This document shows, one piece after another, positions 5,282 through 7,828 of a stretch of 37,650 bases of DNA (position 1 is the stretch's first letter; every line of letters starts with the position of its first letter). Below the pieces are notes generated by a model. That model made no database searches. It was not told the DNA's origin and was given only the letters and a program-made list of their open reading frames with translations. Source of the stretch: Prosthecobacter sp. (GTDB lineage: Bacteria > Verrucomicrobiota > Verrucomicrobiia > Verrucomicrobiales > Verrucomicrobiaceae); contig NZ_JAQSEA010000150.1 of NCBI RefSeq assembly GCF_029946185.1, positions 1-37,650 on the forward strand, in the 5' to 3' direction. The translations under genes were made by a program, and so were the position numbers.

Positions 5282-5376
5282 TTGGGCTGTTTTGAGTCGG
5301 AGAAATCAGGTTCAGATGTGCTGGCGAAAATCGAAGAGCTTCCCCGCTAAAGGGAATAGACTCTTACATATCACAC

Positions 5377-5605: not shown

Positions 5606-5863
5606 ATGAAATTGGAACAAGGCCAGATTTGGAAACAGGGAGAGGATTACATACGCATCGTGGAATGGGCGCGTCTGTCCATCGAGTACAAGGTGATGAA
5701 AGACCCCGTCTCTAAGCAGGGAACGGTGCACCAAGCCACGAAAAAGGAATTCTGCCGCCTGCTCAAAGGGGCCGTGCTGCTAAAGCCGGAGGATCTGCCC
5801 GCCGCTGAAGTGCCTGCTAATGACGAGGAACTCGCTCCTGATCCTGAGACTGAAATGGTCTGA
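5606..5863 (+). CDS. Small conserved-looking hypothetical protein
   Basis: An 85-aa product if started at the ATG at 5606, which is preceded at short spacing by GGAG. An ATG at 5597 and a GTG at 5585 in the same frame are alternatives. The N-terminal two thirds (KLEQGQIWKQGEDYIRIVEW) reads as a small beta-rich fold that then predicts basic helices (KKEFCRLLKGAVLL). The tail is acidic and Pro-rich (EELAPDPETE). No signal peptide, membrane segment or catalytic motif is visible. I do not recognise a named family. Amino-acid composition supports a real cytoplasmic protein. It stands alone between the surface-protein unit and a repeat-rich region. Confidence 0.65.
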   Translation: MKLEQGQIWKQGEDYIRIVEWARLSIEYKVMKDPVSKQGTVHQATKKEFCRLLKGAVLLKPEDLPAAEVPANDEELAPDPETEMV

Positions 5864-5983
5864 ACGCAGACAGACACAGCATGGGCGCTGACCTCCGGTA
5901 CATTTGGGAGGGCATCACCAGAATGCACCTTATCCACCCCAAAGTGCCGCGCTCCATGGGGTCTGAAGGACCCACGGAGTCAG

Positions 5984-6017
5984 CCCAGGGCGCAGTCGCG
6001 CAGCGACAAGCCCTGGG
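5984..6017. repeat. Two-part hairpin
   Basis: CCCAGGGC (5984-5991) pairs with GCCCTGGG (6010-6017), and inside it GTCGC (5995-5999) pairs with GCGAC (6003-6007). An imperfect GGGGTC/GGACCC inverted pair sits just upstream at about 5958-5973. There is no T-tract, so this looks more like an interspersed structured repeat than a rho-independent terminator. It could still stop or stabilise the transcript of the gene ending at 5863. Confidence 0.5.
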
Positions 6018-6322
6018 GTCCCACGAGCCACCACGCATCGTTGCTTCAGGAAGCTCCCTGAATGGACGCAGGAGCGCCTTCTTTCGCTCCATCATGGCCC
6101 ATATCGTTCCGTGATTTCGCAAAGTGAATGATGGGCAACACTCGCATGGCCTCCCGGAGGGAGCAGAGAGATGAGCAGGTGGTGGAGCGAAACCGCGAAG
6201 TCGTGCAGCGGGAACCACCGCACTTGGCACAAGACACCGTCTTCAGGACCGCATGCCGAAGCTATGCGAGAAGCTTACAACCATCCAACGTTCACGGGGA
6301 GTTCGCGTATGGCTCTCTCATA

Positions 6323-6623
6323 CCCCTGGCATGAATGGCACTCGGTTAAGGGTAATTATCGTGGGATGCGCTCCAAAAATGAAACGGGCTATGGAGCGCG
6401 GACTTGAGTCCGCTGCAGGTCGTCCGCGTGGTGCGTGTGTTGATTCGCGCTGAGTACCGCAAACACGGTGACGCTCGGTGTGGCGAAAGTAGAATGCTCA
6501 AGCAGAGCCAATGGGTGCGGCGGTATGCAGCGTGCTCAAGTCCGCACTCCACGGAAAGCTTCGCGCCACACGCTGAATTTGACGGTGTCACCGCTTAACC
6601 GAGTGCCATTCCCCTCTGGCATG
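6323..6623. mobile_element. Candidate miniature inverted-repeat element with flanking direct repeats
   Basis: The body is 6334-6610. Its ends are perfect 17-bp inverted repeats: AATGGCACTCGGTTAAG at 6334-6350 and its reverse complement at 6594-6610. Directly abutting them are CCCCTGGCATG (6323-6333) and CCCCTCTGGCATG (6611-6623), which differ only by a 2-base insertion and look like a target-site duplication. Inside are GCGCTCC/GGAGCGC (6368-6374, 6393-6399), the palindrome GCGGACTTGAGTCCGC (6398-6413), and a 15-of-16 inverted match between 6393-6408 and 6535-6550. No transposase is encoded. A MITE-like element or a degenerate insertion is inferred. Other genomic copies cannot be checked from here. 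Confidence 0.5.
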
Positions 6624-6669
6624 CGAGACCTTGCGCACAATCAGTCTGCGAATTCAAAGACATGCTCGC

Positions 6670-7758
6670 TCATTTTCGCACGGTTTCGAAAAACAGAGTA
6701 AACTCGTGCCGGTTGTAGGTCAGGTGCGTCTGCGCAAACAGACGCAGACCCGCAGCCTTGGACATCGAAACGATGACGCGGAACAGCTCGTTGGCCTCAT
6801 CCAGCGCATCAATTCGCGGCACTTTAAGCGTGTAGACGACGAGGCCGCCGGTCTTGAGAAAACGCGAGAGACGGATCACCTGTTCGATGGATTCCTCCGG
6901 CGGGCCGTTCATGTCGCACAGCAACGCATCATAGAGGGTGCCAGCCCTGGGCTGAAAGGCGGCCACATCTTCGAGGAAAAACTTCAGCCCCGGCCGGCCA
7001 TCGAGGCGTTTGTCGAGAGGTGCACGATCAATCGCCGTGACACGCTGGTTGCGGGCGAGCAATTCCGATGTCATGCCGCCGGGGCAGGCACCCAGTTCGA
7101 TCCAGTGACTTCCTTCTTTCAGCGACGGCCGGTACAGCAGCAGGTAATGCAGCGCCTCCGCGATTTTGGCCCCCGCACGGCTGATCGTGTCCGGTGCATC
7201 CTGATCAATGTATTTGCTGCCACCCGCATAGAGGCCGTTTGAGGCGCGCGGACTCTGCATGCCGCAGAACAGGCCCTCTTTGCCAACGAGACAAAACAAG
7301 GTCTCTGCCGTCGGGTCCTGCTCTTCCACCGTGGCTGCGGCCAGCTTGGGAAACAACTGCAGCACCCGGCCGCGTAGATTCGACGCCAGGCCCTTGTAAT
7401 ACTTGTCGGGAGACGTGGGCTGCAGGGTGCCGATGAAGATCCCCTGCGGGTTGCGCTCACCGAATTTCTTCAGCAGCGTCTGCGCTGCCTTTTCGATGAA
7501 GCCATCCATCTTCTGCGCATTGCAGGGCCAGGTGTGGTCCATCGGCAGATTCCAGCGGGCAAACTTGGCTGCCTCAGACTGGCGGATCGCCGCAGGTGTT
7601 GCTGTCTTGATGAGATAATAATCCTGACCCAGCCGTGTGCTCGATGCTGCGCCCATCTGTTGCAGGACGCTGTCTGCGATCCCCTCAAAAATCTCGGGGA
7701 TGCGCACCAGCCAAGGGCGGTGAGTCGGGGGGGCTGCGTTCGTTTCACTGTCGGTCAT
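6670..7758 (-). CDS. rlmM: RlmM-like 23S rRNA ribose 2'-O-methyltransferase
   Basis: The 362-aa product matches the usual RlmM length (about 366). The C-terminal half is an FtsJ/RrmJ-type SAM methyltransferase: motif I ELGACPGG at about 221-228, an acidic residue after strand 2 (AIDRAPL), LLCDMNGPP with Asp282, and TLKVP with Lys312, fitting the K-D-K catalytic set of this family. The N-terminal half fits the THUMP-containing RNA-binding region of RlmM. The E. coli enzyme methylates C2498 of 23S rRNA; the same target is inferred here. The ATG at 7758 is preferred over the GTG at 7770 because AGGAG lies 5 nt before it. The gene starts 70 bp after the response-regulator gene. Confidence 0.75.
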   Translation of the reverse strand: MTDSETNAAPPTHRPWLVRIPEIFEGIADSVLQQMGAASSTRLGQDYYLIKTATPAAIRQSEAAKFARWNLPMDHTWPCNAQKMDGFIEKAAQTLLKKFGERNPQGIFIGTLQPTSPDKYYKGLASNLRGRVLQLFPKLAAATVEEQDPTAETLFCLVGKEGLFCGMQSPRASNGLYAGGSKYIDQDAPDTISRAGAKIAEALHYLLLYRPSLKEGSHWIELGACPGGMTSELLARNQRVTAIDRAPLDKRLDGRPGLKFFLEDVAAFQPRAGTLYDALLCDMNGPPEESIEQVIRLSRFLKTGGLVVYTLKVPRIDALDEANELFRVIVSMSKAAGLRLFAQTHLTYNRHEFTLFFETVRK

Positions 7759-7828
7759 GCACTCCTGCACTCGCGCTGCATTGTCCTGTCTGCAAGCAGA
7801 GGAGTGTGGCCAGGTTCCGGCGGTGGGC

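Follow-up and report, generated by a model that had tools for sequence, protein, structure and literature searches.

A 279-bp sequence in the genome of Prosthecobacter sp. is very probably a MITE of the IS4 type. In the window, by which we mean the whole stretch of 37,650 nucleotides that was analysed, it occupies positions 6333..6611 (both terminal inverted repeats included; no strand assigned). The best explanation overall, to which we give a probability of about 0.95, is that it was moved by an IS4-type transposase whose own element has the same 18-bp ends, and that it inserted into an older palindromic repeat, repeat C. The following traits of a MITE are seen here: inverted ends, a target duplication, dispersed copies, short length without a transposase gene, and empty sites. 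The MITE reading had been put forward in a first-pass annotation made from the letters alone, and it is upheld by the recurrence of the ends in the genome, by the existence of empty sites and by transposase genes with matching ends in sister genomes. The element is ordinary in kind and well supported, and its family is new only as far as the literature searched shows; no description of an IS4-subgroup MITE family was found in the literature searched on Verrucomicrobia and Prosthecobacter, and the print record may still hold one. Less ordinary is the fact that the same ends surround two palindromic interiors that are unrelated to each other, and that one of these is also present where no ends can be recognised.

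Structure of the element

The left terminal inverted repeat, GAATGGCACTCGGTTAAG (6333..6350, + strand), is the same as both ends of the full-length elements L104 and L112 described below, and the right one (6594..6611, - strand) is its perfect complement; the two pair over 18 bp with 100% complementarity. The first-pass annotation had seen this repeat and placed its limits at 6334 and 6610, which made it one base too short at 17 bp. With starts up to 600 bp apart, the window contains no other perfect inverted repeat of at least 12 bp, and 60 dinucleotide shuffles of the window gave none of at least 16 bp; inverted 12-mers averaged 2.4 per shuffle, against seven overlapping ones in the window, all from the 18-bp repeat. 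The inner inverted repeat that had been described at 6393-6408 and 6535-6550 is also real, with a larger extent of 26 bp at 88% complementarity (6392-6417 with 6526-6551). These are the arms of the interior module that we call B: the left arm (6392..6417, + strand) contains the self-palindrome GCGGACTTGAGTCCGC, and the right arm (6526..6551, - strand) has a palindrome of its own, imperfect in this copy. The absence of a transposase inside the element was correctly noted, as no listed reading frame of at least 100 aa overlaps 6333-6611 and the longest stop-free stretch in the six frames is 82 codons.

Copies in the genome and the genus

The ends belong to a dispersed family. In the 6.19-Mb, 317-contig assembly from which the window comes, a 341-base query spanning the element has 48 matches, counting the window itself, and the 17-base end has 78 matches at up to two mismatches (reversed-pattern control 0), five of which are a repeated coding-like stretch rather than ends. 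Nineteen end pairs at the same threshold enclose elements of 104-312 bp in this genome, and at up to one mismatch the end is present in 22 of 48 genomes of the genus, this one counted (control 0). The BLASTN-type check that had been suggested for further copies therefore gives many with the same ends in the own genome, and the objection that the element might be single-copy falls away.

Ends of the form AATGGCAGTCTGTTAAG or AATGGCATTCTGTTAAG, several of them near contig ends, looked like those of an autonomous IS and were rejected. They appear to be the repeated coding-like stretch, since all five share the flank GAGC(A/C)GATGAACATGAGTCTGAATG and no partner end was found in the stretches fetched, where some contigs end close by. 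Contig C38 (L050) carries two very short relatives (82 and 106 bp), whose ends are variant and whose 11-bp duplications are perfect. On contig C104, near position 5339, a CRISPR-like stretch directly adjoins the left flank of a MITE copy (L020), with GTTGAAACGGTGGAAACCGTGGAAGTCTC three times and two different spacers in the 200 bases shown.

Target duplication and target preference

The direct repeats reported next to the ends are genuine, but they constitute an 11-bp duplication with two substitutions, not a pair of 11 and 13 bases. The left copy, ACCCCTGGCAT (6322..6332), and the right copy, CCCTCTGGCAT (6612..6622), neither with a strand assigned, are identical at 9/11 positions; for the extra CT, two substitutions are preferred over a 2-bp insertion because the pair reads ACCCCTGGCAT / CCCTCTGGCAT. 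The length of 11 bp is that of the family. Among 33 bounded elements (27 own and six from other genomes, three of these six being about 1.62 kb), flank identity is 0.80 at a duplication length of 11, against 0.16-0.24 at 8-10 and 12-14. The 11-bp flanks are identical at 8.76/11 bases within elements and at 6.03/11 between elements (n=33). At least 9/11 flank bases are identical in 25 of the 33 (20/27 own, 5/6 from other genomes) and in only 14% of between-element pairings, with seven of the 27 own elements and one of the other six falling below this value. The count used ends at up to four mismatches and excludes elements with a flank cut by a contig or locus end, such as L104 and L035, as well as repeats of elements already counted.

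The consensus target over the 33 elements is the palindrome ATGCCTGGCAT. The own genome contains 16 instances of a target-like motif, AAGATGCCNGGCAT, on the two strands together (control 0), which makes the preferred target a repeated motif in its own right there. The string GGCATGAATGGCA, which is the target plus the first bases of the end, has 25 exact sites (control 0). About eight of these (C14:5490, C30:267, C64:138, C104:10098, C159:28739, C161:29967, C280:5441 and C282:6579) are not the start of any listed end, four of them within about 30 bp of a MITE; these eight could represent isolated end fragments or footprints of excision.

The host locus and empty sites

The element sits between two convergent reading frames, a short frame at 5606-5863 (+ strand; no family in Pfam) and an FtsJ-like methyltransferase at 6670-7770 (- strand). 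The extra stretch of the window compared with its relatives consists of repeat D, repeat C and the MITE, and this repeat stack between the convergent frames is lineage-specific. In the loci of ten relatives, nothing matches 5904-6674; in eight of them 21-56 bp separate about 5775-5810 from about 6685-6695, and two (G021 and G030) have a different stretch of about 375 bp. As the relatives are without the larger repeat block, paralogues of repeat C were used instead, and the empty site of the window copy is paralogous only.

Repeat C is the older palindromic repeat that received the MITE; its left part lies at 6144..6332 (+ strand), and a probable degenerate right remnant lies at 6623..6690 (+ strand). 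The remnant was placed by multiple alignment, in which roughly its first 11 bases align well; no BLAST match was reported for it. Removal of the MITE and one copy of the duplication restores repeat C across the target, an argument that rests on a short stretch because the right remainder is degenerate. Eleven other copies of repeat C in six genomes, the own one included, are uninterrupted at the target, with the consensus CATACCTCCGGCATGCGGCCTTG; 13 loci were fetched, and L172 and L174, where the match stops before the target, were left out of the alignment. Repeat C (L163-L175) is a palindromic dispersed repeat of about 290 bp. The consensus fold of six aligned copies has 89 pairs, eight of them changed on both sides in at least one sequence, and with an unfavourable covariation term (+1.73) a conserved RNA is not established. 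Adjoining it is repeat D (5919..6139, + strand), another dispersed repeat, about 220 bp long at most (L176-L181), for which the main matches were fetched; these come from the own genome and relatives, are 77-90% identical and show no recognisable ends.

An orthologous empty site is available for another own copy, C275:12484-12805, whose joined flanks were compared with 16 loci, one of which is the own copy. The site is uninterrupted in nine relatives (G002, G021, G017, G032, G022, G023, G006, G010 and G026); the junction is free of gaps in G021 and has gaps totalling 3-13 bases nearby in the other eight, and the target itself is poorly conserved in G010. Four genomes (G012, G028, G030 and G001) have an insertion at the same 11-bp site. 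These insertions are variants of the same MITE type of about 310-650 bp, with the interior module present twice in G012 and G028 and two elements in a row in G001. The loci of G062 and G013 match the right flank only, and in further relatives, such as G008, G015, G029, G057 and G067, the flanks are about 0.8-1.1 kb apart. The empty sites anticipated by the first-pass annotation thus exist as orthologous sites for the C275 copy and as paralogous sites for the window copy.

This evidence bears on the idea that the sequence is a structured RNA gene or a bidirectional terminator whose inverted repeats are kept for folding. Such an origin would suit the position between convergent frames and the fact that both strands are predicted to fold strongly (z -6.85 and -9.29 against shuffles), though a long inverted repeat alone would be expected to yield such scores. 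It is already contradicted by the duplications and empty sites, it does not account for dispersed copies in which unrelated interiors have common ends and copy-specific duplications, and nothing matching the element stands at this locus in the ten relatives compared; nor does the whole window contain an Rfam match at gathering scores. We therefore give this explanation a next to negligible probability. The related suggestion that the RNA could adopt competing folds is weak, as the ends and the inner arms pair in one nested stem of the predicted fold and so do not compete with each other. A real alternative would be for each inner arm to fold on itself, given the palindrome GCGGACTTGAGTCCGC in the left arm.

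The likely partner insertion sequence

Sister genomes contain the transposase with matching ends that the MITE reading calls for. Transposase genes are bounded by exactly AATGGCACTCGGTTAAG in two of them, G027 and G030. The element in G027 (L104) measures 1587 bp end to end and carries a 514-aa transposase frame; its right flank is cut, which makes a duplication unreadable there. The element in G030 (L112) measures 1621 bp with a frame of 493 aa, and both have the identical end on both sides. A third element, L102 in G026, has a variant end, a length of 1622 bp, a 504-aa protein and an exact 11-bp duplication. Among 39 genomes of the genus, 33 have DDE_Tnp_1 matches; of the more than 100 matches listed, 30 loci were fetched and scanned for ends at up to five mismatches.

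All three proteins match NCBIfam NF033592 (IS4 family transposase), at 207.7-214.6 bits with a cut-off of 115, and Pfam PF01609, at 81-91 bits with a cut-off of 23. The L112 protein, the one in which positions were assigned, by eye, has the spacing D-75-D-116-E, within the IS4 criterion D(60-110)D(100-150)E, and a YREK motif, YYRRWSIELFYRDVK, of the form Y(2)R(3)E(6)K. The available part of PMC2266710 gives the IS4 subgroup ends of -AATR--------WTW, a length of 1400-1650 bp, duplications of 10-13 bp and YREK, and describes the family as moving by cut-and-paste. The end GAATGGCACTCGGTTAAG matches this signature position by position, and the 11-bp duplication falls within the range; by ends, size (1.59-1.62 kb), duplication length and DDE/YREK residues, the partner fits the IS4 subgroup. 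Named records of this IS come from one Verrucomicrobia MAG, four Verrucomicrobiaceae MAGs and one Prosthecobacter sp. MAG.

The window element differs from members of the subgroup in having no transposase, and it has little in common with the partner IS beyond the 18-bp ends. For 19 own elements, the 24 bases next to the end were set against those at the six ends of the three IS. In 11 of the 19, one end has 14-20/24 bases in common with the left end of L112 or L104, a level equalled in 0-3 of 200 shuffles; the remaining eight, among them the window copy, reach at most 13/24. The left 24 bases of the window copy are no closer to the IS than shuffles (85/200 as good) and the right 24 only slightly closer (12/200 as good), and its resemblance to the IS lies in the 18-bp ends only.

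With the L112 transposase as query, 23 of 48 genomes give matches, of which many are fragmentary or distant. No relative was found in the own 317-contig assembly, so the window copy is probably immobile, unless a transposase gene lies in an assembly gap or re-enters. The single PF01609 match of the own genome, on contig C126, was not taken as the partner, since its locus has no matching end at up to three mismatches. On the same contig (L065), tandem AAAAAGATGCCAAC units, with a run of N, lie between a DDE transposase remnant and another frame, which looks like a Y1-type transposase.

Shortened copies of the IS are also present. In a 0.89-kb copy in G030, residues 1-127 run on to residues 371-493 at 98% identity, an internal deletion, and L132 is a copy of the same length; the deleted form could plausibly mark the beginning of the path from IS to MITE. 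In G012, G027 and G032 there are short pieces whose match is confined to roughly the final 40 residues of the transposase; those in G012 and G027 adjoin an end. Several sit at contig starts and may be assembly breaks, and we draw nothing from them.

Model of MITE movement

Our analysis suggests a model in which a full-length element sharing the 18-bp ends supplies an IS4-type DDE transposase that would bind the MITE at its ends, excise it and insert it at a site similar to the palindrome ATGCCTGGCAT, with 11 bp being duplicated. For the window insertion the target lay in repeat C, which is part of the repeat stack between the convergent frames. Movement in trans by the transposase of the sister-genome IS is suggested by the agreement of the ends, and the cut-and-paste chemistry is presumed by analogy with the IS4 family.

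The MIC231/IS231 mobile insertion cassettes of Bacillus cereus are non-autonomous members of the IS4 family, mobilised in trans, with a modular interior, and MIC231 carries genes. The window family resembles them as a non-autonomous IS4-family element with a modular interior, and differs in having non-coding palindromic modules where MIC231 carries genes. IS231 also belongs to another subgroup of the family, with CAT ends (PMC2266710, in the part available). The present family adds to the phylum an IS4-subgroup MITE with a likely autonomous partner, a clear target preference, and filled and empty sites. As the full-length IS, the internally deleted IS and differing interiors occur in one genus, the birth of a MITE and the replacement of its interior could be traced there.

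Interior modules

The same ends enclose two unrelated palindromic interiors. Type A is roughly CTGGGTTTGCT(T/G)CCCGG...CCCAGGG, and in type B, to which the window copy belongs, GGAGCGCGGACTTNAGTCCGC palindromes flank a conserved centre; L035 has both, as judged by eye. The palindrome GGAGCGCGGACTTNAGTCCGC occurs 48 times at up to three mismatches (control 0) and forms inverted pairs in several places; 17 of the 48 lie within 330 bp of an end (up to two mismatches). Of the remaining 31, those located in L010 and L029-L033 show an end when up to four mismatches are allowed. At this looser threshold no end was found in L014, L018, L034 or L044, nor in L038, a weaker match of the 341-base query; inspection by eye still reveals a truncated left end in L014. 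The B loci without recognisable ends indicate that B exists outside recognisable MITEs, and it was either captured by MITEs or shed from them.

The inverted palindromes of the interior, in their many copies, could also point to a REP/REPIN-type element moved by a RAYT (Y1 transposase), and REP repeats are on record from a verrucomicrobial genome (available part of PMC3733652). Against this, the outer ends match the IS4 element exactly, and as an account of the whole element we consider it very unlikely. To our knowledge, 11-bp duplications such as those present here are not expected of REP movement. A REP/REPIN reading may apply to the interior B module rather than to the whole element. For the element itself, moved as an IS4-type MITE, we advance tentatively, and as a possibility that we rate below even odds, that the IS4-type ends form an interchangeable shell capturing and spreading unrelated non-coding palindromic modules (A and B, of which at least B is also a separate dispersed or tandem repeat); repeat families of the genome would then be exchanged among carriers, and MITEs would land in other palindromic repeats such as C.

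In five of eight aligned B elements (L016 and L019-L022), the two palindromes of one element differ (GGAC...GTCC and GGAAT.AATTCC), which favours local hairpins as the unit that is kept; the right palindrome of the window copy, which is imperfect with three mismatches, argues against this. Module B also occurs as two copies in a row in L018 and as four copies in tandem, about 202 bp apart, on contig C135.
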